Shown piece after piece: positions 2 through 35,707 of a stretch of 64,000 nucleotides of DNA. A model generated the notes under the pieces. The model did no database searches. It was not told the DNA's origin and saw only the letters and a list, made by a program, of their open reading frames with translations. The DNA is from Coriobacteriia bacterium (GTDB lineage Bacteria > Actinomycetota > Coriobacteriia > Anaerosomatales > Anaerosomataceae). The position numbers and the translations under genes are program-made. The DNA is taken from assembly GCA_030652115.1 (NCBI GenBank), contig JAUSBK010000007.1, positions 1 to 64,000 of the forward strand, read 5' to 3'. The first letter of the stretch is position 1. Every line of letters starts with the position of its first letter.

Positions 2-3000
2 GCAGTCGGGGCCAAGCAGGCCACGGGTCCTACCGGCGTAACCTATGAGCCTTCCACCTGCATCAACCCCGCATGCCACGACTACGCTGCGGTCAGCACA
101 GGAGGCTTCATCCCCGAGTGCGGCAGCTGTCACGCGTCGAGTGCCGATGAGACCCACGGGGCCCCGCATGTGGCGACAGACGACGCTGTGTGTGGAGTGG
201 CGTGCTCCGATTGCCACGAGTTGAGCATGACGATCGAGCACGAGAAGCCCGAGTCGACAAGCTCGGGCCAGGGTTGCACGGCGTGTCATCCGACTCCCGC
301 TGCCGCCGCCAAGCCCTGGAACGGCAGTTGCGCCACAGCCGACTGCCACACGGCCACCTCCGGTGCGCCGATGCATCTCGAGATGGCCGTGGCGCACGCG
401 GTTTCGGAAAGCAATGGGGTCTGCCTCGGCTGCCACGCTGGCAGTGAGCTCGGCTTGATACACACAGGCGCCGAGAACCCCGACACGGGAGACGCGTCCT
501 GTCTCGTCTGCCACACTGGCGAGACCGGCGAACCGGCTACCAACGACTGCACGGTCTGCCACTTCACCTTCGACGAGCACTACGACGAGGTGGCGCACCA
601 GTCCGACACGCTCATCGGTTGCAGTGGCACCGGCTGCCACGAGACCCCGGACCTCTTCGCGGTTCACACGCAGCGCAACGCCGAGTTCGGGTGTGTTGGC
701 TGCCACGACAGCACGCGGGTCGCGGTGCAGGATGCGATCGCCGAAGGAGACACGTCGTGCTTCGACTGTCACGCCGATGTGTCTCCCACAAGCCCGCACT
801 ACTCGGTCCACTGGGCTCAGCCGCCGCTGTTCACGGTCGACCCAGTCACGAACGTGCACACGAACTACTACTCCTACTACGATGGCACCTCGGGCAGCGC
901 GCCCACGGGTGACTGCGCCATGTGCCACACCTCGAACCTCGTCGAAGAGCATAACGGCCGCTGGGACGCGACCATCGGCTTCTGGAGCCGCCGGCCGCGT
1001 TACGACAGCGAGGGCAATGCGCTCACATGCAACACCTGCCACGGCTCATCCGACTCAACGGTCACGGGTTCGATCGCGGACGGCGCCACGGCCTGCGACT
1101 CCTGTCACGCGATCCATGGGCCGGTCTTCTCCGGCGCCCATGCCTCGACGTTCGTCGACAGTCCGGAGGTCGAATGCGCCGACTGCCACGAGGACGACCT
1201 GGTTTCAGAGCACGACGGGACCTATCCGGTGCAGACCGCCGACGGTCTGAAGAACGTCACCGGTTGCGCCGTCTGCCACAGCTACACGTACGGTGAGCGG
1301 GGAGACGTGGTCCAGGCTGCGATCTCCGAGACCAACGACACGCGCTGTTCGGCCTGCCACGCCGCTTACCACACCGACTCGACGGCGCATGATGCCTCGA
1401 GCGCTGCGAGTCTCGAGTGCGGTGTCTGTCATGCCGAGGGCCAGACCACGATCGACGTGACGTCGGTCCACTCCACCTGCGCCACCTGCCACCAGGCGGA
1501 GCGCCTCGGCGCGATCTCGGATCACACCGCCGAGTGCTCGAGCTGCCACGCAACGGCGGGTACCGACTATCACGCCGAGATGGACGGGCTGCACACATTC
1601 ACCGCCATGGGTGAGAGCTGCAAGTCCTGTCACGACCAGACGCTCCCCGAGGCGCATGCGGACTATCTCGATCGCTACCCGGCGTACAGCTCCACCTGCG
1701 CGCTCTGCCACAAGAATGCCGACCCGGATAGCATCAACTGGGACACGGCCTCGGCCGACTGCTCGACGTGTCACGAGATTCACGGCGACGTTGAAGTGCT
1801 GCACACGTCAACGGCAAGCCAGGGTTGCGTGCGCTGTCACGACTCGGCGGATGTGCGGCTCGTCCACGCAGCGACTGCTGGCGATCCAGACACTTCGTGC
1901 GATGTCTGCCACAACGCCACATTCGAGCTCTCGGCTGACATGACAGCTGAGTGCGAGACGTGCCATAACGCCGGGGGCGTGCCATTCCACACGTCGATGA
2001 ACGTGCTCCACATCGGCCTGGGTACCTCGGGTACGTGCGAAGGTTCGGCGTGCCACGTTCGGGACGTCGCCACGCTGCACGAGGAGTTCATCGGTCCGGG
2101 CACGCAGTATCCGCAGTACCAGGACACGTGCTCGCTCTGCCACCTGAACGATGACCCCGACCGCATCGACTGGGACGTGGCCACCAACGGGACGTGCTGG
2201 AATTGCCACGGTGCGCCGCACGATCGGATGAGCCACGTGGCGAGTTCGGTCCAGAGTCTGGACTGTGCCGGCTGTCATGATGACTGGGTCGTGGAGACCC
2301 ACAACGCATACGAACCCACGGGCGGGTCCCTGGACAACTGCAATACCTGCCATCGCAATCCGCTTGCTGGCAACATGACGTGGGACAAGTCCACCTCGGA
2401 CTGCGAGGGGTGCCACGACAAGTACCCGGCCGCCACGAACCACTACCCGGCGGACAAGCACCTCGCAGTCCACGCGGACGTCTGCGTTGACTGCCACTAC
2501 ATGGACCTGAAGTCCGAGCACGTGAAGGTCGATGTGGCGTGTATCGAGTGCCACACCGACCCGTCGGACTCAGCGATCATTGCGGCCGGCTGGAACATGA
2601 ACTGCGATCAGTGCCACATGGACAACCATGATGACGAAGCCACGCGGCATGCATCCACGCGCGCCGACTGCAGCACGTCGGGCTGCCACGAGTCGGATGT
2701 CTCCGCGATCCACAGTGGTCTGCCCTGGATGGGCTGCAAGAGCTGCCACACGGGCCCGGCACAGCTTGCCTCTGATCTCACCAAGAACTGCACCGACAGC
2801 GGCTGTCACGACGATGGATACCACACCACACTACCGGGGCTGCATACCGCCACCGCGAGCGCGGCCTGCACGCGTTGCCACACCGAGCGGCTGGCGGACG
2901 GCTCGCAGCTCGAGCCGATCCACGACGCAGCGTGCGCAACCTGCCACAACAGCACGATCGATGCCTCGACCAAGACAGCCGAGTGCACCACGTGCCACAA

Positions 3001-5581
3001 CACCACCGTAGCGCCGTACCACGCGGCAATGGACAGCACCCACGACTTCACGACCATGAGCAGCGGCTGCCAGCAATCCGGCTGTCACCTGAAGACGCTA
3101 CCCGAGGAGCACGCGAGGTACCTGTCGCGGTATCCGTCGTACGCCGATACCTGCGCCCTGTGCCACTTGAACGCGAATGCGGGTCGCATCGACTGGGCGA
3201 CTGCTTCAGCAGACTGTTCGACGTGCCACGAGATCCATGGCGACATCGCGGTGGTTCACACGGCAACAGCCAGCCAGTCATGCAGAGCCTGTCATGAGAC
3301 ACAGAACGCGCTCGACATCCATGTCAAGAAGGACGGCAGCGGCGACACCAACTGCGCTCTGTGTCACAACGCGGCGGCCGGCCGCATCAACTGGGACCCG
3401 GCTACCGTGTCGATGGAGTGCACGTACTGCCACGGCACGTACGCGCAGATCGACCCGGCCCACTATCCGGTGGCGGCGCACGACGCGTCGGCCCAGACGG
3501 GCTGCAACCAGTGCCACTACAAGGACATGAAGGCTGAGCACTTCCTGGCCACCGTGTCGCCGGCGGTCACGTGCGTGTCGTGCCATGAGCTCAAGGTGGA
3601 TGCATTCGCGGCGCCGTGGGACAAGACGTGCGGCTCGTGTCACCCGACCAACCACCGTGACAAGAACACCAAGCACCTCTCGACATCCGCAAGCTGCGGC
3701 GGCACCGGTTGCCACGACATCGCCAACGTGGACGCGATCCACTCGGCCACGAGCAGCGGATGCAAGGCGTGCCACGTCTCGCCGTCCGTTCGCGCTACGA
3801 CAACGACTTGCACGGCCGCGGGCTGTCACGCGAGCATCGGAACGAATCATCACGAGGCGCACAACGCGGCGTCGGTGAACCCCAGCGGCTGCAAGGGTTG
3901 CCATTCCATGTATCTCGATGACGAGCATTCCGCACTCGGATACGCCTGCGCGGCATGCCACGATTCGACGAACAGCGCAGTCGTTGCGGCGATCGCCGCC
4001 GGCGATCTGCGGTGCAAGACATGCCACCCGGGGTTGCACGGAAAGCAGAACTACGAGTTCAACCCGAGCATGTCGAGCGTTCACCGCGTGAGTGTCGAGT
4101 TGCCGGGGATGCGTTCGTCGTTCGTAGTGGGCGGCCGGTCGTACACCTGGAGCTTGCCGTCGACCACCAGCTTCCTCAAGTCGGGCTGGACCGCGAGCAG
4201 CATGATGTCGTGCGACAGCTGTCACGCGTACACGGGCGCAGCGGGACCGCATGGAGCGACCATGCAGGTGAAGATGGATCCGGGGTATCCAGCCGACTGG
4301 CAGACCAAGCGGCTGGCCGGGAGCTCGAGCTTCAGCGACTACAACAGCAGCCCGGTTGCGCCTGCGTACACGGGGGGTTATGTGGGCACCTCGACCGGCG
4401 CGGTCATTTGCGACAAGTGCCACAACACCAACTACAGCAATATGAACGAGGTCCACGGCAAGGGCGCTCACGAGGGTGCGTACTGCACCGACTGCCACAC
4501 GCAGATGCCGCACGGTTGGCGTCTGCCGCGGTTGCTGGCGTACACGAGCGACCCGTCCCCCTACGCGGCGCGGAGGCTTGCGGGCATCAGCCTCACGAGC
4601 CACTCCGCCACGAGTGGTTGGGACGACAGCGACTGCTACGCGGGCTGCCACAGTCACGAAAACACCGTGTCGCCGGCATGGCCTACGGCTGACATCGTTG
4701 TCACGACCGGCGCTATCAGCGGGACGGTCAAGAACTCCTCTGGTGCTGCCATCTCGGGTGCGACAGTGAGCATCGCAGGCAAGACGGCGACCACGTCGAG
4801 CACCGGTGTCTACACCGTCAGCGATGTCACGGCGGGCACCTACACGATGACCGTGAGCGCCGCCGGCTACACCTCGTGGTCGGGCTCCGTGACGATCACC
4901 GTGGGCGGCACCCTCGCGCAGAACGTGACGCTCTCGGCCGTCCCGGTGACGACCGGCGCCATCGGTGGGACGGTCAAGAACCCCGCTGGAGCTGCCATCT
5001 CCGGTGCGACAGTAAGCGTTGCGGGCAAGACCGCGACCACGTCGAGCACCGGGGTGTACTCGGTCACCGGCATCACGGCCGGCACCTACACGATGACCGT
5101 GAGCGCCACCGGCTACACCTCGTGGACGGGTCAGGTTTCGATCACGGCAGGTGGCACGGCCACTAAGAACGTGACGCTGGCGGCGGTGCCGACGGCCACG
5201 AACCTCGCCCGGACCGGGACGGCCTCGGCATCGAGTCAGGCAAGCGGCTCCTATAGCGCTGCTAAGGCGATCGATGGAAGCACGAGCACATACTGGCGGT
5301 CATCCTCGGGCGGTACGCAATGGCTGCGCGTCGACCTCGGGTCCGCGAAGACCATCTCGAGCGTGGTGGTGAACTGGACCAGCTACTACGCGAAGTCGTA
5401 TCGCATCGAGACATCGAACGACGGCTCGAACTGGACGCAGCAGTTCACGACGACGTCGGGCAACGGCGGCATCGACACGATCGCCATACCGTCGGTCTCT
5501 GCGCGGTACGTGCGCGTCTACTGCACGAGTGCGAACTCCACCAACTACCGGGTCAACGAGTTCGAGGTCTGGGGCAACTAG
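2..5581 (+). CDS. Giant multiheme c-type cytochrome with CarboxypepD_reg and F5/8 type C domains (5' end missing)
   Basis: The reading frame is open to the left edge, so the gene starts outside the window; a GTG at 170 is internal, because heme motifs already lie upstream of it. The visible part is about 1859 residues. By hand count, residues 1-1558 carry about 50 CXXCH motifs, nine CX4CH motifs (for example CSGTGCH, CTDSGCH) and one CX3CH, so roughly 60 covalent hemes, with many extra His residues as axial ligands. Residues about 1568-1731 are two tandem carboxypeptidase-regulatory-like beta domains. Residues about 1734-1859 form an F5/8 type C (discoidin) domain ending in EFEVWGN, which in known proteins binds sugars or surfaces. 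No TM helix or sortase motif is visible at the C terminus. Likely role: extracellular electron conduit held to the cell surface or matrix. The signal peptide cannot be seen. The cytochrome call is certain; the role is inferred. Confidence 0.95.
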   Translation, partial: AVGAKQATGPTGVTYEPSTCINPACHDYAAVSTGGFIPECGSCHASSADETHGAPHVATDDAVCGVACSDCHELSMTIEHEKPESTSSGQGCTACHPTPAAAAKPWNGSCATADCHTATSGAPMHLEMAVAHAVSESNGVCLGCHAGSELGLIHTGAENPDTGDASCLVCHTGETGEPATNDCTVCHFTFDEHYDEVAHQSDTLIGCSGTGCHETPDLFAVHTQRNAEFGCVGCHDSTRVAVQDAIAEGDTSCFDCHADVSPTSPHYSVHWAQPPLFTVDPVTNVHTNYYSYYDGTSGSAPTGDCAMCHTSNLVEEHNGRWDATIGFWSRRPRYDSEGNALTCNTCHGSSDSTVTGSIADGATACDSCHAIHGPVFSGAHASTFVDSPEVECADCHEDDLVSEHDGTYPVQTADGLKNVTGCAVCHSYTYGERGDVVQAAISETNDTRCSACHAAYHTDSTAHDASSAASLECGVCHAEGQTTIDVTSVHSTCATCHQAERLGAISDHTAECSSCHATAGTDYHAEMDGLHTFTAMGESCKSCHDQTLPEAHADYLDRYPAYSSTCALCHKNADPDSINWDTASADCSTCHEIHGDVEVLHTSTASQGCVRCHDSADVRLVHAATAGDPDTSCDVCHNATFELSADMTAECETCHNAGGVPFHTSMNVLHIGLGTSGTCEGSACHVRDVATLHEEFIGPGTQYPQYQDTCSLCHLNDDPDRIDWDVATNGTCWNCHGAPHDRMSHVASSVQSLDCAGCHDDWVVETHNAYEPTGGSLDNCNTCHRNPLAGNMTWDKSTSDCEGCHDKYPAATNHYPADKHLAVHADVCVDCHYMDLKSEHVKVDVACIECHTDPSDSAIIAAGWNMNCDQCHMDNHDDEATRHASTRADCSTSGCHESDVSAIHSGLPWMGCKSCHTGPAQLASDLTKNCTDSGCHDDGYHTTLPGLHTATASAACTRCHTERLADGSQLEPIHDAACATCHNSTIDASTKTAECTTCHNTTVAPYHAAMDSTHDFTTMSSGCQQSGCHLKTLPEEHARYLSRYPSYADTCALCHLNANAGRIDWATASADCSTCHEIHGDIAVVHTATASQSCRACHETQNALDIHVKKDGSGDTNCALCHNAAAGRINWDPATVSMECTYCHGTYAQIDPAHYPVAAHDASAQTGCNQCHYKDMKAEHFLATVSPAVTCVSCHELKVDAFAAPWDKTCGSCHPTNHRDKNTKHLSTSASCGGTGCHDIANVDAIHSATSSGCKACHVSPSVRATTTTCTAAGCHASIGTNHHEAHNAASVNPSGCKGCHSMYLDDEHSALGYACAACHDSTNSAVVAAIAAGDLRCKTCHPGLHGKQNYEFNPSMSSVHRVSVELPGMRSSFVVGGRSYTWSLPSTTSFLKSGWTASSMMSCDSCHAYTGAAGPHGATMQVKMDPGYPADWQTKRLAGSSSFSDYNSSPVAPAYTGGYVGTSTGAVICDKCHNTNYSNMNEVHGKGAHEGAYCTDCHTQMPHGWRLPRLLAYTSDPSPYAARRLAGISLTSHSATSGWDDSDCYAGCHSHENTVSPAWPTADIVVTTGAISGTVKNSSGAAISGATVSIAGKTATTSSTGVYTVSDVTAGTYTMTVSAAGYTSWSGSVTITVGGTLAQNVTLSAVPVTTGAIGGTVKNPAGAAISGATVSVAGKTATTSSTGVYSVTGITAGTYTMTVSATGYTSWTGQVSITAGGTATKNVTLAAVPTATNLARTGTASASSQASGSYSAAKAIDGSTSTYWRSSSGGTQWLRVDLGSAKTISSVVVNWTSYYAKSYRIETSNDGSNWTQQFTTTSGNGGIDTIAIPSVSARYVRVYCTSANSTNYRVNEFEVWGN
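1568..1866 (+). repeat. Diverged ~100-residue protein repeat inside the giant cytochrome (copy 1 of 3)
   Basis: The encoded stretch, which starts YHAEMD and runs through TLPEAHADYLDRYP and CSTCHEIHGD, recurs at about 3017-3324 (YHAAMD, TLPEEHARYLSRYP, CSTCHEIHGD). A more diverged version lies at about 1984-2300 (FHTSMN, then CSLCHLNDDPDRIDWD). The repeats show that the heme region grew by internal duplication of a several-heme unit. Confidence 0.8.
4703..5194 (+). repeat. Two tandem 246-bp units encoding CarboxypepD_reg-like domains
   Basis: Two direct copies lie at 4703-4948 and 4949-5194, with an exact 246-bp (82-residue) period. Both encode TTGAI.GTVKN, SGATVS.AGKTATTSSTGVY, TAGTYTMTVSA.GYTSW and end in NVTL.AVP. 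This is an in-frame protein-domain duplication between the heme region and the discoidin domain. The high DNA identity suggests it is recent. Confidence 0.9.
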
Positions 5582-25412: not shown

Positions 25413-25472
25413 GATTAACTAGGTGATTGGCTAGGGGATTAATCGGGTGATTAGCCGGGTGATACACCGGAC
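25413..25472 (+). repeat. Five 12-bp tandem repeats in the leader of hexaheme gene A
   Basis: GAT recurs at 25413, 25425, 25437, 25449 and 25461, exactly 12 bp apart. The units are GATTAACTAGGT, GATTGGCTAGGG, GATTAATCGGGT, GATTAGCCGGGT and GATACACCGGAC (consensus GATTAgCcGGGT). They lie downstream of the predicted start and about 45 bp before the start codon. The array has stop codons in every forward frame and codes for nothing. It could bind a regulator or act in the RNA. Confidence 0.85.
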
Positions 25473-25518
25473 TCGTTCCGGTTGCCACAAATCCACTCGC
25501 GAAAGGAGGTGCAAGAAT

Positions 25519-26268
25519 ATGAAGAGAATGATTCTTGTTGCAGTTCTGGCTCTGGCCATGCTCGCCACCATGTCGGGCGTGGCGTTCGCCGGTAACACCG
25601 AGGGTGTTGCTGGTATCTCGCAGTGGGACGGCGTTGACACCGTTCACAGCGGCTACGCCGCCACGACCAACGCCTGCAAGGTGTGCCACGACGTTCACGG
25701 TAACGCAAACTACAAACTGTTTATCGATAACAACGTGAGCACCGGTTGCAGCACCTGTCACGTGACCCTTACCGCTGCGCCGAACGTCTACACCGGCGCT
25801 ACGGATGCGCACGTGATCGGCGGCGCACTTGCCACCCTGCCGGACAGCAGCAACACCGCTGGCATGCTGGGCGCCGACGCGGTTCTTGGCTGCCTTGACT
25901 GTCACAACGCCGCACCGCACGGTGCCGGCGCTGGCACGGGGTACGCTCTCGTGACCGAGGATGACGACAACGACTTCTGCCTCCGTTGCCACGATGAGAA
26001 CGACGGTCGCCTGACCCTGGGCGTGATCGCGGACACCAACACGCACGTTATGGTGGCCGTGGGCGATTCGTACATTCGCAATGGCGACATCACGGCTGAT
26101 GACGCTGACGCGGGCGTGACGAGCGAGAACTGCATCAACTGTCACGTTGACGTGACGGACTTCCCGCACTCTGGCGAGTACAAGCTTCTGACGGCCGGAT
26201 CGGCCGCGGATGCGCTTGATGCTGAGTGCCGTCTGTGCCACGGCGCGACGGTCGGTGTCTCGTACTAG
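25519..26268 (+). CDS. Secreted hexaheme c-type cytochrome, cassette A (candidate filament subunit)
   Basis: This 249-residue protein has a clean signal peptide (1-24, cleavage after VAFA). Its six CXXCH motifs are CKVCH (53), CSTCH, CLDCH, CLRCH, CINCH and CRLCH. The mature N terminus has HSG followed by a CXXCH and DVH, a pattern I recall from the OmcS/OmcE nanowire cytochromes. A perfect AAAGGAGGTG precedes the ATG. Codon choice is rich in GTT, GCT, GGT and CGT compared with its neighbours, a sign of high expression. It has its own promoter and a terminator downstream. Counterpart: 32187. Secreted cytochrome is certain; filament formation is inference. Confidence 0.93.
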   Translation: MKRMILVAVLALAMLATMSGVAFAGNTEGVAGISQWDGVDTVHSGYAATTNACKVCHDVHGNANYKLFIDNNVSTGCSTCHVTLTAAPNVYTGATDAHVIGGALATLPDSSNTAGMLGADAVLGCLDCHNAAPHGAGAGTGYALVTEDDDNDFCLRCHDENDGRLTLGVIADTNTHVMVAVGDSYIRNGDITADDADAGVTSENCINCHVDVTDFPHSGEYKLLTAGSAADALDAECRLCHGATVGVSY

Positions 26269-26319
26269 TAGTTGATGTTCGGGACTGCGCATGAAGCCTG
26301 GCTTCCTGCCGCATGGATC

Positions 26320-26347
26320 AGGCGCCGGGGGGAATCCCCCGGCGCCT
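26320..26347 (+). terminator. Terminator after hexaheme gene A
   Basis: AGGCGCCGGGGG (26320-26331) pairs over 12 bp with 26336-26347 around a 4-nt loop, followed by GTTCT. It probably limits read-through into the 12-heme genes and raises the ratio of hexaheme to membrane cytochromes. Confidence 0.75.
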
Positions 26348-26457
26348 GTTCTATGCGCGGAGCACACCCAAGTCGGCGAAGTCCTGTCGCCACGCGTGCA
26401 TTACCATAGTGAAGACTCTTCTGAGGACCCAAGCCACAGACGACGGAGAACGCGCAG

Positions 26458-27480
26458 ATGCGCATGCCCATCGACCCACAGGATCCAGACAGCATCGAGC
26501 GGAGGCGTCGCGCCCTGCGCCTCATAGGCCGCACCGCGGCCGGGACCGCGCTGCTCCTGGTGCTGGTCGGCATCGTGGGCTCGTCGGTCGTGACGTATGC
26601 TCCGGGCGCGTGTGTCGGATGTCATGACGCACGGGTGCTGGATGGCCACGAGACCTCCGCGCACGCCGATGTGTCCTGTCTCGAGTGCCACACTGCGTAC
26701 TCGGCATTCGGGGGGCTGGTCGGTGCGACGCACGCTGTGGGCGCCGTGCTGCGTCCCTCGGGCGCGGCACGCTCGTCCGCAGGTGCCGTTGACAGCGCAT
26801 CGTGCTCCACGTGCCATCCGCACGAGAGTACGGTCCAGGTCACGATCAGTCGCGGGGTCCGCATGTCCCACGCGGGACTGACGGAAGGCGGCTACGAGTG
26901 CGTGGACTGCCACGAGGGTCTGGTCCACGGTGTGGCCGCCGGCAAGCTGCCTGTGCCGACCATGGGGATGTGCACCCGATGCCATGACGGCATCGCGGAG
27001 ACCGCGCAGTGCGACACCTGCCACCCCGAGCGCGCCCCGGACGACGGCGACAGACTGCGGGACGCGGAGTGGGCCATCACTCATGGTTCAGGGTGGGAGC
27101 AGGCGCACGGGCTCGGCGATCTTGCGACGTGCGGGGTGTGCCACGAACCTGGGAAATGCGTGAAGTGCCACGGGACGCGGCTTCCGCACCCGTCCGACTT
27201 CGGGGTGACCCACGGGCAGGAGGCGATCGCGGTAGGTGCCGCCAGCTGCAAGACGTGTCACACAGATGCCTTCTGCGCGAGTTGCCACGGTATCGACATG
27301 CCGCATCCGGACGGCTTCTTGCCCGAGCACTCGCAGATCGCTGAGGGCATGACCGATGGGCGCTGCATGGTCTGCCACGTCTCGGCCAACTGCAACGAAT
27401 GCCACGAGCGTCACCTGCACCCCGGGTCGTCGCATCGGATGCGACCGCCTACCGGCATGTATGAGGCGAAACCGCAGTGA
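26458..27480 (+). CDS. Membrane-anchored 12-heme cytochrome (NapC/NirT-like position), cassette A
   Basis: This 340-residue protein has a cytoplasmic Arg-rich N terminus, one TM anchor at about 22-46 and an extracytoplasmic domain with twelve CXXCH motifs (CVGCH, CLECH, CSTCH, CVDCH, CTRCH, CDTCH, CGVCH, CVKCH, CKTCH, CASCH, CMVCH, CNECH). The anchor plus early hemes resembles NapC/NirT quinol dehydrogenases, which pass quinol electrons to periplasmic cytochromes; that role is inferred. The ATG at 26458 follows CGGAG; an ATG at 26464 is also possible. The next gene overlaps its stop. The segments CHGIDMPHPDGF and HLHPGSSHR have exact positional equivalents in the cassette B copy at 33562. Confidence 0.93.
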   Translation: MRMPIDPQDPDSIERRRRALRLIGRTAAGTALLLVLVGIVGSSVVTYAPGACVGCHDARVLDGHETSAHADVSCLECHTAYSAFGGLVGATHAVGAVLRPSGAARSSAGAVDSASCSTCHPHESTVQVTISRGVRMSHAGLTEGGYECVDCHEGLVHGVAAGKLPVPTMGMCTRCHDGIAETAQCDTCHPERAPDDGDRLRDAEWAITHGSGWEQAHGLGDLATCGVCHEPGKCVKCHGTRLPHPSDFGVTHGQEAIAVGAASCKTCHTDAFCASCHGIDMPHPDGFLPEHSQIAEGMTDGRCMVCHVSANCNECHERHLHPGSSHRMRPPTGMYEAKPQ

Positions 27481-28625
27481 GTGCGCTCCTTGAGAGAGTC
27501 CAGCAGACGTGGGAGACGCTGCAGACGAGTCTGGCCGATCCTGCGTCCAATCCGCTGGCAGCCATCCTCGGGCTTGCCATCATCGTGCTCATCTTCCTGA
27601 TCCTCGTGATCGCGGCATACGTGATAGTCCTCGGCCCGGAGCGTAAGGCCGCAGCTGCTACCGACGTGACTGCCGACTCCGCAGCCGCGAAGCGGCAGAA
27701 GACGCGCAAGCGGGATGTGCTGTGGTCGTTCGTTCTCGTCGGCGTGGTTTTCGCGGGCCTCATCGCGGGAATCGCGTACACATCGACAGACTCTTTCTGC
27801 GCGCGGTGTCACTACACGGAGCGCGCATTCGAATCGCGGGCTGAAGCCGCCCACGCCGGAGTGTCGTGCCGCTCATGCCATGAGGCGGGTGGGGTGACGA
27901 CCTACCTCGATGCGAAGGCTCGGGGGCTGGTCAACCTGAGCACGCAGCTGACCGGTTCGTACTCGGAAGAGCCTACCGCCACGACAGTGGCCGACGCCGC
28001 GTGTCTCCGATGCCATGCCGAAATTGCAGAGGAGACGATCGTCGCAAGGAGCATCAAGGTCCGTCACTCGGACATCATCGATGCCGGTTACCACTGCATC
28101 GAGTGTCACAACACCGAAGGACACGGGCGCGAGGTGTCTCGTCCCAGGTATCCGGAGATGCGGTACTGCATCGTCTGCCACGACGGCTCCGACGAGCAAT
28201 CGGAGTGTTCGACCTGCCATCCTGAGGACACAGGTGTGGCCATCCGGCGGTCCAGGCGTGTCTTTCCTAAGACCGATGTCGTGCGCGAGGACTGCCGCGG
28301 CTGCCACAGCATGCAGCCGTGCACCGAGTGTCACGGCATCGAGCTCCCGCACACGCGGAAGTTCGTGGCCGGTTACCACGCGCGCTGGGCGTACGATGAC
28401 CTCGACATGTGTCTGTCGTGTCACGACATGGACAGGTTCTGCAACGACGTTGGATGCCACAACTTCTCAGCAGACATCGTGAGCGACGACGGGCTATCGA
28501 GGGTCGATGAACAGCACGCAGAACTCATGGATCAGCATCCCGGCTTGACCGCCAAGCGGTGCGCGGGCTGTCATGGGGATCCCGATGTCTGCGAATACTG
28601 TCATGGGGATCTCCCCGAGCACTAG
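27477..28625 (+). CDS. Two-TM 12-heme cytochrome, cassette A
   Basis: This 382-residue protein starts at a GTG that overlaps the previous stop (GTGA). TM helices are at about 28-52 and 80-100, separated by a charged cytoplasmic loop ([10 protein letters not shown] to KRQKTRKRD). The rest carries eleven CXXCH motifs and one CX4CH (CNDVGCH), so twelve probable hemes. It probably forms a membrane complex with the preceding 12-heme protein, as suggested by translational coupling and by the same pairing in cassette B. It ends 58 bp before leuB. Confidence 0.92.
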
Positions 28626-30830: not shown

Positions 30831-32073
30831 TCCGATTACCTCGGACACCATGACCGCAGCTGCGGTGCGTTCGGAGGCCCGGCCGACGGGCGCTCGGTCC
30901 AGCCGCGGCCGTAAGATCATGATCGTCCTGCTCGTATTCCTCGCGCTGCTGCTCTGCTCGGGGTCGTACCTGCTGCTACGCTTCGTGCAGCCGGCCGGCG
31001 AGATAGCCACCACCGAAGAGGCCAGGGGCATCGAGTGGGTGCGGTCGATCTACGGATGGGGCGACGGGCCGGGCGAGCAGCTCCAGCAGCCGGCCTCGGT
31101 GGCAATCGACAGCAGCGGGCGCATCCTCGTGCCGAGCGTTGCGGACACCTCTCAGGTCTACCGCTTCGGTGCGGATGGCGCGTTCGTCGACTCATTCTTT
31201 GGCAACGAGGCCGAGGGTCGGGTCCTGTTTCCGACCGGCGTGACCGTGGGCCCGGACGACTCGATATACATCGTCCAGAGCACGCAGGGAAACCTGCTGA
31301 AGCTGACGCCGGACGGCCAGCAGACGCTGCTTCAGGTGGATGTGGACGCGCCGACCGCCGTCGCGGTGACGGACGATCGCATCTTCGTCGGCGCGAAAGC
31401 CGGGTTTGCGATCCTCGATATGGAGGGCTCGCCGATAGAGATCATCGGTACCCAGGGCTTCGAGGAGGACCAGTTCGACACGGTCTCCGGCCTCGCCGTG
31501 GATGAGGACGACAACATCTACGTGGTCGACACCTACAACAACCGCATCAGCAAGTTCGACCGGAACGGCCAGAGGCTGTGGATCGTGAAGACCGGCAACC
31601 CGGCGAACCGTGCCGCCAACGAGGGCGCGGAGAGCCTGACGATCGAGACCGACGCTCCGGCCGCCATGCAGACTCCCGGCGCCGCCGTGATTGACGGGGC
31701 AGGCCGCCTCGTCGTGCTCGACATGCTCGACTTCTCTCTGGCGGTGTTCGATCCCGAGAATGGCGACGTCATCGCCAAGTACGGCACGTACGGAACCGAA
31801 GAGGGCACCTTCATGTATCCGTCGGGGTTGGCGTACGACCCCGACCGCGACTGGTTCGCCGTCGCTGATCTCGGCAACAACCGGGTGCAGATCGTCCGAC
31901 TGCCCGACTCCTCGGCATCCACCGTGCTGCCATCCGCCCGCCGCGCCCTGACCGGCTCGCTTCGGGCGCTGTTCCTGCCGCTCATCCTGCTGATCATCGG
32001 ATTGGCTTACTGGCTCTACCGCACGTTCCGCGACATGCGCTCACGGCGGGCCGAGGACCGTGCCCGCGCGTGA
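30823..32073 (+). CDS. Membrane NHL-repeat beta-propeller protein with C-terminal TM, cassette B
   Basis: This 416-residue protein has an N-terminal TM helix (about 30-52), a central six-bladed NHL propeller (QQPASVAIDSSGRILVPSV, FPTGVTVGPDDSIYIVQST, VSGLAVDEDDNIYVVDTYNNRISKFD, AAVIDGAGRLVVLDML, YPSGLAYDPDRDWFAVADLGNNRVQIV) and a second TM helix near 380-397 followed by a basic tail. Both ends would be cytoplasmic, with the propeller outside. Cassette A's homologue lacks the C-terminal helix. It is translationally coupled to the TPR gene and precedes the hexaheme gene, as in cassette A. Confidence 0.86.
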   Translation: MTDPITSDTMTAAAVRSEARPTGARSSRGRKIMIVLLVFLALLLCSGSYLLLRFVQPAGEIATTEEARGIEWVRSIYGWGDGPGEQLQQPASVAIDSSGRILVPSVADTSQVYRFGADGAFVDSFFGNEAEGRVLFPTGVTVGPDDSIYIVQSTQGNLLKLTPDGQQTLLQVDVDAPTAVAVTDDRIFVGAKAGFAILDMEGSPIEIIGTQGFEEDQFDTVSGLAVDEDDNIYVVDTYNNRISKFDRNGQRLWIVKTGNPANRAANEGAESLTIETDAPAAMQTPGAAVIDGAGRLVVLDMLDFSLAVFDPENGDVIAKYGTYGTEEGTFMYPSGLAYDPDRDWFAVADLGNNRVQIVRLPDSSASTVLPSARRALTGSLRALFLPLILLIIGLAYWLYRTFRDMRSRRAEDRARA

Positions 32074-32186
32074 TGTCGCCAGATACGCTTTCGGAGGCCA
32101 CACGGCCTTTCGGAAAATCCGTCTCGGAAAGGAGGTGTGCAACAAGAGACATGAAAACACAGCCAACTCGCAAGAATGGAGCATCA

Positions 32187-33455
32187 ATGAAAAGGGCTAT
32201 GTTTATCGTTGCCATGGCCGCCGTGCTGGTTCTCGCACTCGGCGGGACCGCGCTCGCAAAGGGCGTGAACCCGGGCAACCGTTCGTCTTCCTACCTCGCC
32301 AAGGGCGAGAGCTATATCGAGTGGGCCGACGCCCAGACCAAGATGGCGGCCGTCGGCGTTTCCGCTGAGGCAACTGCGAGCGTTCACGGCAACTACAGCA
32401 CGACGACAGTCAAGTGCCAGGTTTGCCACTCCGCTCACAAGGCGTCCGCCACTGGCGACACGCTGCTTCAGAGCACCGCAGCCCAGGCGTGCGTTCCGTG
32501 CCACCTCGGCGCGACCGCTACCTCGGGCCTGAAGGTCTCCGCGGGCAACCGTCACGGTTCTGCCACCGGCTGCACCAACGGCTACTGCCACGCGATCGCT
32601 CCGCATGGCGCTGGCGACATCTCCAAGTACGCCACCCTCAAGACCGCGATGCTGACCAACCACGCTGACAGCCTGCTCGACGCGGCTGTCGCCTCTGGCG
32701 CCAGCGGCGTTGCCGAGACCGGCAACATCTGGCCGACGGTGTCCGACGCTCTCGATCCGGCGACCGTGCCGCTCGCGACGATCGCCGTCAAGAACCCGGG
32801 CGTCACCGCTGCGCTGCTGAACGACACCAGCACCCCCTCCTCGATCGCACTTGGTCGCGCCGTGGGTACGGGTTATGTCTGCTCCAACGGTGGTTGCCAC
32901 ATGAACGGCCAGTTCAACGCGCTCACCGAGGACGCCACGTTCGGCGCCTGGGGCGGCGACGTCATCGTTGAGACCGGCGGATACACCGTGACGGTTGACG
33001 AGAGCACCAACACGACCGCTACGCTGCCGGCTGGCACCTACACCTCGACCGACACCTGGACCTCTGGTGCGTACACCAACAACGTGTGGGACCTCCTGCA
33101 CATGCGCAAGACGGCCATCAAGGGCCACACGCTTGCCGCCGTTGCCGATCTGACCGTGCGTGACGTCGCCTACGCCAACGTTGGCGCCTGCAGCGCATGC
33201 CACGACAGCATCGACTACCGCATCAGCCCGACCACGAAGCAGTTCCCGCACGGTAACGACGTCATCAGCACCCTGGGCGTCGACACCGGTGCCAACAGCT
33301 CCGCATGGTTCATGCTGAAGGACTCGGTCGGTGGCGCCGCCATCGCAACCGACGGCCGCGGCACGACCGACGCGACCTACACCTCTGGTATGGACGGTGC
33401 GTGCCTCAAGTGCCACCGCGCCGATGCCACGACGGGTGTTGGCCTTACGTACTAG
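32187..33455 (+). CDS. Secreted six-heme c-type cytochrome, cassette B (candidate filament subunit)
   Basis: This 422-residue protein has a signal peptide (1-24, cleavage after TALA), four CXXCH motifs (CQVCH, CVPCH, CSACH, CLKCH) and two CX4CH motifs (CTNGYCH, CSNGGCH). The mature N terminus reads VHGNY, then CQVCHSAH, then LLQ, then CVPCH, similar to the pattern I recall for Geobacter OmcS. Codon use is biased to GTT/GCT/GGT/CGT as in hexaheme A. GGAG lies five bases before the ATG at 32187. An in-frame ATG at 32151 follows AAAGGAGGTG with long spacing and would add 12 residues. A terminator follows. Cytochrome identity is certain; filament formation is inference. Confidence 0.92.
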   Translation: MKRAMFIVAMAAVLVLALGGTALAKGVNPGNRSSSYLAKGESYIEWADAQTKMAAVGVSAEATASVHGNYSTTTVKCQVCHSAHKASATGDTLLQSTAAQACVPCHLGATATSGLKVSAGNRHGSATGCTNGYCHAIAPHGAGDISKYATLKTAMLTNHADSLLDAAVASGASGVAETGNIWPTVSDALDPATVPLATIAVKNPGVTAALLNDTSTPSSIALGRAVGTGYVCSNGGCHMNGQFNALTEDATFGAWGGDVIVETGGYTVTVDESTNTTATLPAGTYTSTDTWTSGAYTNNVWDLLHMRKTAIKGHTLAAVADLTVRDVAYANVGACSACHDSIDYRISPTTKQFPHGNDVISTLGVDTGANSSAWFMLKDSVGGAAIATDGRGTTDATYTSGMDGACLKCHRADATTGVGLTY

Positions 33456-33487
33456 GTTCGGATTGGATTAGGGGTATAACGCGAGGG

Positions 33488-33516
33488 GGGACCGGCTCCG
33501 TCAACGGGCCGGTCCC
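33488..33516 (+). terminator. Terminator after hexaheme gene B
   Basis: GGGACCGGC (33488-33496) pairs with GCCGGTCCC (33508-33516) around an 11-nt loop, 32 bp after the stop. As in cassette A, a hairpin separates the hexaheme gene from the 12-heme genes. Confidence 0.7.
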
Positions 33517-33561
33517 TCCATGCGCGTCAGCGTGATCTGGCAGGCCATGCGCGAGGACAAG

Positions 33562-34539
33562 ATGAGCGTGAATGACAGCGAGAAGATAGGAAGAAGCCCG
33601 TGGCGTCGGCTGCTTGCGGTCACCCTCGGGTGCATCGGCGTCTTCGTGCTGCTCAATGCTGCGGCTGTGACGGTCGTCGCCGTGACACCCGAGCGGTGTT
33701 TGGAATGCCATACGGCGAGCGGCGCAGAACCGCTCGAGGTGCGCGAAAGCCACGCTGGCTCCGCGTGTCTTGACTGCCACGGCGGTACATCGGCGGTCGA
33801 CGCTGCGCTTTTCGCCGGACGCCAGGTATACGGCATGTACCTGCAGCTGGATGACCTCGAGGGACGGAGCGCTGCGCGGGTCGACAATGCGGCGTGTACG
33901 TCGTGCCATGACGTATCCGGCGGACCCTCAGAGGGTGGGGCGATCCGCATCGATCATGCGATGTGCGCGAGCGATCGGCTGTGCACGGACTGCCACTCTC
34001 GCGTTGTCCATGGCGACTCCGTGTCGTGGCCCCGCTCCTACGACATGTTCGACTGCGTGCCCTGCCACATGTCGCAGGCGCAGTCGGTTCAGTGCGACTA
34101 CTGCCACACCGAGCGCTCTCCGGCGGAGCGCGTGCGCACCGGCACCTTCGCGCTCACGCATAGCGCCAACTGGCGAGAGACTCATGGGATGGGTGACTCG
34201 CTCGCGTGCGGCGCGTGTCACGACGCCGATAAGTGCGTGTCGTGCCATGGTGCCGGCGTGCCGCACACCCCGGCGTTCGTATCGAATCACAGCGGGCCCG
34301 CGGTACAACCGGATGCCAGGTGTGACTCGTGCCATACCCCTGCGTTCTGTGACGACTGCCACGGGCTGGCGATGCCGCACCCCGACGGCTTCACGCCGGG
34401 CCACTCCGCGCTCGTGAACGCCGAGGGTGATGAGGTCTGTCAGCGTTGCCACGCGCCGGCCGACTGCGTGACGTGCCATGTGAAGCACGTGCATCCCGGC
34501 AACGCGAAACGAAGCGGCGGTGACGCGTCCGGTGAGTGA
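33562..34539 (+). CDS. Membrane-anchored 12-heme cytochrome (NapC/NirT-like position), cassette B
   Basis: This 325-residue protein has a TM anchor at about 15-40 (LLAVTLGCIGVFVLLNAAAVTVV) and twelve CXXCH motifs (CLECH, CLDCH, CTSCH, CTDCH, CVPCH, CDYCH, CGACH, CVSCH, CDSCH, CDDCH, CQRCH, CVTCH). The order and flanks match the protein at 26458, for example CHGLAMPHPDGFTPGH versus CHGIDMPHPDGFLPEH, and the ending HVHPGNAKR versus HLHPGSSHR. The frame is open from 33520, but that ATG abuts the terminator stem; the ATG at 33562 has GCGAGG upstream. A quinol-oxidising role is inferred. Confidence 0.92.
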   Translation: MSVNDSEKIGRSPWRRLLAVTLGCIGVFVLLNAAAVTVVAVTPERCLECHTASGAEPLEVRESHAGSACLDCHGGTSAVDAALFAGRQVYGMYLQLDDLEGRSAARVDNAACTSCHDVSGGPSEGGAIRIDHAMCASDRLCTDCHSRVVHGDSVSWPRSYDMFDCVPCHMSQAQSVQCDYCHTERSPAERVRTGTFALTHSANWRETHGMGDSLACGACHDADKCVSCHGAGVPHTPAFVSNHSGPAVQPDARCDSCHTPAFCDDCHGLAMPHPDGFTPGHSALVNAEGDEVCQRCHAPADCVTCHVKHVHPGNAKRSGGDASGE

Positions 34540-35707
34540 TCTGTTGACCGCGAACACGCAAGAGACCCTCCGACTGATCTGGGAGATCGTCGTCGACCCG
34601 GCATCCAAGCCGCTCGAGGCGCTCCTGATCTTCGGCATTCTGGTCGTGGGCATGATCATGCTCCTAATCAGCGTTCTCTTGATGATCACTCGCCGTCCCC
34701 AGCAGACGGCCGAGACCGGGGATGACACCGCCACGGCCATCGAGGGAAGTCCGACGGGTGTCGAGGATTCGCACGACGCCAGCCGCCCTCCCAGGAAACG
34801 GCTCCCCGCAGGCGTCGTGGTCCTCCTGGCCATCGTGGGCTGGTGGCTGGCTACCGCGGTAACGACCACCTCGACACCCGTGTGTCTGACGTGCCACGAG
34901 GGCAGCGATCACGCGTTGACACAGGCTGACCGTGATCCGCATGAACAGGTACGTTGCGTGCGGTGCCACGACGATGGAGGTGCGCTCGCGAGTCTGACCG
35001 TGGCGGTCCCGTCACGGGTCGAGCACGTCGTGACCGGAATGTTCCGGGACGTTCCCACCGGCGGGTACGGGAGCTCTGACCGGGCGTGCGTCTCGTGCCA
35101 CGCGGCCGGCATCGAGCGGACCACGGAAGACGAGGCCAAAGCGGTCAAGATGTCTCACGTCGAGCCGCTTGCACAGGGTGCCGAGTGTCTTGACTGCCAT
35201 CGCGTGAACGATGGCATAGTGGGAGTCAGCACCACCGGGATGCAGCCGTGTCTCCGCTGCCACAACGATACGGATGCGCCCGCCGACTGCGCTTACTGCC
35301 ACACAGGCGATATCGCGCTGGCGGTCGCGGGCCGCAGTCAGGCGACGACGGCGACCGCCGAGGTGCTGGTGACCCGGATCGACTGCGGCGGATGCCACAC
35401 CCAGGAGACGTGCGACTCATGCCACGGCGTCCGGCTTCCGCACACCCCGGAGTTCATGTCGTACGGCCACGCACGCGAGGGCGTCGAGGACCTCTGGTAC
35501 AACGGCGGCGCAACGTGCGGTAAGTGCCACAACGAGGAGAGTCGTCCCTGCACCTCGTGCCACCTCGGCAAGTTCGTATCGCATGGCTCGACATTCCGCA
35601 CCCTGCACCAGTCGGGTACGAGCTCGGGTTGTGACAGCTGCCATTCGGCCATGGCATATCGCAACGGACGCGACTTCTGCGGGCTGTGTCACGGGGAGGC
35701 GCAGTAG
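34520..35707 (+). CDS. Two-TM 12-heme cytochrome, cassette B
   Basis: This protein of about 395 residues is translated from a GTG at 34520 or 34532, overlapping the previous stop. TM helices lie at about 34-56 and 95-113, with a charged loop between, then twelve CXXCH motifs. It matches the protein at 27477 in layout and in landmarks: DPASKPLEA versus DPASNPLAA before TM1, and CHGVRLPHTPEF versus [12 protein letters not shown]. Cassette B ends here, and the next genes face it on the minus strand. Confidence 0.92.
   Translation: MTRPVSDLLTANTQETLRLIWEIVVDPASKPLEALLIFGILVVGMIMLLISVLLMITRRPQQTAETGDDTATAIEGSPTGVEDSHDASRPPRKRLPAGVVVLLAIVGWWLATAVTTTSTPVCLTCHEGSDHALTQADRDPHEQVRCVRCHDDGGALASLTVAVPSRVEHVVTGMFRDVPTGGYGSSDRACVSCHAAGIERTTEDEAKAVKMSHVEPLAQGAECLDCHRVNDGIVGVSTTGMQPCLRCHNDTDAPADCAYCHTGDIALAVAGRSQATTATAEVLVTRIDCGGCHTQETCDSCHGVRLPHTPEFMSYGHAREGVEDLWYNGGATCGKCHNEESRPCTSCHLGKFVSHGSTFRTLHQSGTSSGCDSCHSAMAYRNGRDFCGLCHGEAQ

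Follow-up and report, generated by a model that had tools for sequence, protein, structure and literature searches.

Large multiheme cytochromes attached to the cell envelope have been described in ANME archaea, where MHC-A, MHC-B and MHC-C are exported single chains that bear 20-86 heme motifs and have been proposed as a route for electrons across the outermost layer (PMC9012536). Like the giant cytochrome described here, these proteins fuse a heme chain to envelope- or carbohydrate-attaching domains; they are, however, archaeal and carry S-layer domains, C-terminal transmembrane helices or a pectin-lyase-like domain (PMC9012536), whereas ours is actinobacterial and carries CarboxypepD_reg and CBM32-like domains. 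Control of extracellular electron transfer by riboswitches is known from Geobacter, in which OmcAHG, OmcST and PgcA are under cGAMP-responsive GEMM-Ib riboswitches (PMC6456294). There, likewise, a cyclic-dinucleotide riboswitch turns on extracellular cytochromes, but the riboswitch class (GEMM-I vs c-di-GMP-II), the ligand (cGAMP) and the phylum all differ, and the likeness concerns regulation and not cytochrome kinship. Closer in taxonomy, Anaerosoma tenue and Parvivirga hydrogeniphila (OPB41, Anaerosomatales), which probably belong to the same order as the host of our sequence, have 17-18 multiheme genes per genome, some of them clustered with quinol-oxidising types, and one strain respires Fe(III); in the part of that source available to us, neither a giant CBM-tailed cytochrome nor the riboswitch is reported for them (PMC9686372). 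Envelope-attached giant cytochromes and cyclic-dinucleotide riboswitches before cytochromes are thus already known, and what appears to be new is the pairing of a c-di-GMP-II riboswitch with a CBM32-tailed giant cytochrome. We did not find this combination in the open-access papers searched, nor c-di-GMP-II with any cytochrome, nor a multiheme cytochrome with a discoidin domain, all of which is weak evidence of absence.

The window, i.e., the whole stretch of 64,000 nucleotides that was analysed, starts with a single open frame of 1859 residues that has no internal stop and is open at its 5' end (Table 1). An earlier note on this DNA had put the visible heme motifs at about 60, and the count is exactly that: 50 CXXCH, one CX3CH and nine CX4CH, which together take up 120 of the 122 Cys of the visible protein. 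Shuffled versions of the protein contained a mean of 0.6 CXXCH and a maximum of four, against the 50 observed. Since the motif number is beyond chance, the product is, as judged by its sequence, a multiheme c-type cytochrome. The same note ranked it among the largest heme counts known; the number is indeed very high, but a record is ruled out by a published ANME-2c archaeal protein with 86 motifs (PMC9012536).

Table 1 Features of the giant cytochrome locus. Positions refer to the window unless contig C11 or a visible-frame residue is given.
Feature	Position	Strand	Basis
c-di-GMP-II aptamer (RF01786)	C11:127930-128014	+	65.5 bits vs curated cut-off 53.5
Signal peptide and first heme motif	C11:128112-128245		own genome searched with N-terminus of a full-length relative
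Pointer to 5' parts outside the window, on C11 (c-di-GMP-II aptamer, start codon, signal peptide, first heme)	2..58	+	
Giant multiheme c-type cytochrome gene, 3' part (1859 codons + stop)	2..5581	+	ORF, contig position, motif count, relatives
Heme-bearing region, 60 motifs	2..4684	+	motif count, His count, self-comparison
First visible CX4CH motif, CINPACH	59..79	+	motif count
Other eight CX4CH motifs	start at visible-frame residues 110, 207, 679, 890, 930, 1023, 1232, 1270		
CX3CH motif	start at visible-frame residue 1545		
CarboxypepD_reg (Ig-like) domain 1	4715..4936	+	Pfam PF13620; model pLDDT about 90
CarboxypepD_reg domain 2, tandem copy	4961..5182 (limits approximate)	+	PF13620, DNA self-comparison, model
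F5/8 type C (discoidin, CBM32-like) domain, C-terminal	5201..5575	+	PF00754, phmmer, Foldseek

The start of the gene is absent because the first base of the window is also that of contig C7, at which the assembly cuts the gene. Retrieval of the upstream sequence, which the earlier note had proposed for the signal peptide and the full heme count, led to contig C11, where a frame with a signal peptide and the first heme motif runs off the contig end at 128245; the export signal, whose absence had been named as refuting, is thus present, as it is in all full-length relatives. In a genome of the same genus (G002), the genes of the C11 end and the C7 start flank one full-length cytochrome gene contiguously, which supports the join of the two contigs. 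Well-aligning relatives place the first residue of the window at about residue 165-206 of the full protein, with five hemes before it, and from the same relatives the gap between C11 and window base 2 is estimated at about 135 codons (about four hemes). The alignment therefore gives a whole protein of about 2040 residues and about 65 hemes.

Given the internal repeats of the protein, and since contig ends fall within or close to the gene in many relatives, the frame could be suspected of being an assembly artefact, with separate genes joined or repeats wrongly expanded, a suspicion that we find hardly credible. The nearest relative, from another genome, is colinear over window residues 189-1858 at 65% identity, and at least 14 genomes carry full-length relatives in a single frame. 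The internal duplication, a stretch of about 460 residues in the heme region with a second copy about 500 residues later, is only 35% identical at the protein level, indicating that it is old. A frameshift or an assembly error joining separate genes, which the earlier note had named as refuting, is excluded by the single open frame together with the colinear relatives, and a chimera likewise by those relatives and the synteny in G002. Separately, we noticed that the draft contigs of L130, L131, L133, L138, L140 and others end inside the cytochrome gene or just past the riboswitch, so that the size of this gene is probably under-reported in databases.

The heme region contains 126 His, 60 of them proximal and 66 others, while the C-terminal part has none; the balance is similar in 14 relatives. 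With 66 distal His for 60 motifs, bis-His ligation is possible for every heme, including those of the CX4CH motifs. A search against the PDB (phmmer) matched no solved structure in the heme region, solved nanowire cytochromes of the OmcS, OmcE and OmcZ type included, its matches falling on the C-terminal domains only. Pfam matches to Mtrc-MtrF II/IV profiles in the window protein may reflect heme-motif similarity only. An AlphaFold2 model of a 427-residue heme stretch, built from three sequences, had a mean pLDDT of 28.5, so the geometry of the heme chain cannot be read from it.

Beyond the hemes, Pfam placed two CarboxypepD_reg stretches and one F5_F8_type_C domain above cut-off, bearing out the domain composition proposed earlier. 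The tandem CarboxypepD_reg copies share 82% DNA identity over 246 bp, and the three C-terminal domains were modelled with a mean pLDDT of 84. The closest solved relatives of the last domain are the CBM32 chitosan-binding modules DD1 and DD2 of Paenibacillus sp. IK-5 (38-45% identity; phmmer 1.4e-26; TM-score of 0.83 against 4zxe in Foldseek), which belong to a secreted chitosanase, and the likeness is one of sequence and fold, not of ligand residues. On sequence and model together, the domain is a real CBM32/discoidin fold (jelly-roll) with a putative carbohydrate ligand. The chain ends with this domain and has no C-terminal transmembrane helix; no transmembrane, S-layer or sortase anchor was recognised in the protein sequence, no S-layer domain was among the Pfam matches of the window protein, and NCBIfam matches to S-layer proteins were far below cut-off and located on the Ig-like part. 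Among phage sequences, the C-terminal domain had a single weak match. CBM32 domains bind many different ligands (PMC5651945), and this diversity allows for a protein that itself reduces a soluble or particulate acceptor, with the CBM32-like domain binding the substrate or a partner instead of the cell's own wall or matrix. Some large surface cytochromes of Gram-positive metal reducers, OcwA among them, are such terminal reductases (cited in PMC9686372), yet the spare His for every motif means that no open-coordination heme can be inferred, and we regard this role as distinctly unlikely.

An Rfam search of the window alone yielded no match, because the riboswitch sits on C11. There, the aptamer starts 182 bases 5' of the cytochrome start codon and ends about 97 bases before it, and it is the only above-cut-off c-di-GMP-II copy in the 2.38-Mb genome; two weak c-di-GMP-II copies precede other exported proteins, and c-di-GMP-I copies (n = 2) also lie 5' of exported non-heme proteins. 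Across 61 genomes (our own plus 60 relatives), 36 copies scored above cut-off, and 29 precede a cytochrome of the giant-protein kind, counting 27 with an exported heme-motif frame downstream and two (G001 and G029) in which a signal-peptide stub ends with the contig and the cytochrome gene begins at the end of another contig. The riboswitch is kept 5' of the gene in most relatives with a visible start; L070 and L071, both long relatives, showed none. Among 298 genomes drawn from the whole class, c-di-GMP-II copies above cut-off were confined to this order. Twenty of the 26 aptamer pairs change on both sides among 30 aptamers, and no shuffle attains the observed covariation score; the pseudoknot changes in step from GCAC/GTGC to GCGC/GCGC and is paired in all 30 leaders. 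By score, helices and covarying pseudoknot, the leader element is a c-di-GMP-II riboswitch, for which c-di-GMP binding is predicted, and the 14 GGDEF genes of the genome indicate that c-di-GMP is probably made.

The other seven strong copies precede exported-looking non-heme proteins, and the weak and c-di-GMP-I copies that were checked are mostly placed in the same way. This could be expected of a general surface-protein regulon in which the link to electron transfer is incidental and the cytochrome serves mainly as a structural matrix protein or adhesin. Heme cytochromes are nevertheless the main target of the strong copies (29/36), and at least ten hemes, which are costly, are kept in every relative at the locus; we therefore consider a mainly structural role quite improbable.

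Two further sets of riboswitch matches were observed. In our own genome (L164; G000:C3, 113.5-119.1 kb), two weak c-di-GMP-II matches lie close to a c-di-GMP-I riboswitch, each of the three 5' of an exported non-heme protein, two of these proteins being Pro-, Glu- and Val-rich, in what looks like a c-di-GMP-controlled surface-protein cluster. In G044 (contigs C3, C38, C59 and others; L153, L154), eight weak c-di-GMP-II-like matches fell below cut-off, and those checked are 5' of exported non-heme proteins.

The direction of the switch can be approached through the leaders of the relatives. A terminator overlapping the aptamer can form in 21 of the 30 leaders: AACCGGC, the 3' strand of the aptamer, has a complementary GCCGGTT-like sequence downstream, after which comes a T-rich run. 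Shuffled downstream sequence would give 3.7 such leaders, for a pattern drawn up once the leaders had been inspected and a shuffle that preserves base content only. Example terminators fold with -21 to -29 kcal/mol. Because ligand binding should block the terminator, c-di-GMP should turn the gene on (an ON switch). Our own leader has a weak overlapping terminator only (6 bp, two mismatches) besides other hairpins, and the direction of its switching thus rests on the relatives.

The riboswitch-linked relatives differ widely in size. Short forms have 291-600 residues and 10-22 hemes, and long forms about 1300-2060 residues and 37 to about 65 hemes, the full-length long relatives carrying 37-58. 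The F5/8C domain was found in 6/6 long forms of one domain scan and in 3/4 of another (L076 being without it), and L139 and L129, the short forms that were scanned, lack all of the C-terminal domains. Within a single genus (g9), the protein has 16 hemes in G012 and 44 in G019, with flanking genes in common. Such a number, free to vary from 10 to about 65 at the same locus, would suit an electron capacitor that holds charge in the wall space or matrix for as long as contact with an acceptor is lacking, with conduction not its main role, and so would the very dense hemes (about 26 residues each). Charge storage would also be a property of a conduit, though, and the conserved neighbours described below, NapC/NirT-type and 15-heme cytochromes, are explained no better by storage than by conduction, which leaves a primarily storing function unlikely in our judgment. 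At two other loci, second, short riboswitch-plus-cytochrome copies adjoin the giant one (L064:10781-12030, L074:5683-6738), suggesting tandem duplication of the whole unit.

The giant gene is followed, in several other families of the order (L073, L074, L076, L077, L081), by genes for a 15-heme and a 12-heme protein. In the pair that was scanned (L073), the 15-heme protein is of the Paired_CXXCH type and the 12-heme protein has a NapC/NirT N-terminal domain; NapC/NirT proteins are quinol oxidisers. Our own genome has its 15-heme homologue on contig C8 and not in an operon with the giant gene, whose immediate neighbours are a histone-deacetylase-family gene and ilvD. Taking these observations together, we consider it reasonably probable that the exported giant cytochrome (about 2040 residues, about 65 hemes) is a c-di-GMP-induced, sugar-anchored conduit at the surface or in the matrix for extracellular electron transfer. 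Electrons would pass from menaquinol to a NapC-type protein, on to the 15-heme protein and then to the giant cytochrome, and finally to a mineral, humic matter, an electrode or another cell. The giant chain would span wall and matrix, a length that is plausible from its heme number, while its CBM32 end would hold it to a polysaccharide. High c-di-GMP would keep the aptamer folded and the competing terminator blocked, leaving the gene on, so that the conduit would be made when cells become sessile. The presence, upstream of the giant cytochrome, of a riboswitch for the biofilm signal c-di-GMP suggests that an electron-conducting surface is built when these bacteria settle.

A broader reading can be advanced only tentatively, as one that we rather doubt: that members of this order have a conductive extracellular matrix turned on directly by c-di-GMP, the riboswitch making the giant cytochrome in step with the polysaccharide bound by its CBM32 end, and that at one conserved locus the heme region has repeatedly expanded and contracted, which tunes the heme number and lets relatives reach across different distances. 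Compared with the Geobacter systems, the c-di-GMP-II riboswitch stands before a giant cytochrome across many genera of probably one actinobacterial order with few cultured members, and the prediction is that a sessile-state signal switches on one giant heme protein. One kind of locus that carries anything from 10 to about 65 hemes also offers a natural series, which could reveal what heme number means for function.

Additional cytochrome genes were seen in the window and elsewhere in the genome. A second cluster (window 25435-28625) encodes a protein that has seven heme motifs and whose N-terminus is signal-like, and after it two 12-heme proteins that each have NapC/NirT-type matches; a third (window 31869-35707) is of similar make-up, with a six-heme-motif protein and two 12-heme proteins. 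Another locus of the same genome (L092:8353-10695; G000:C13, about 127.4-129.7 kb) contains a very heme-rich frame of 780 codons with 32 regularly spaced CXXCH motifs.
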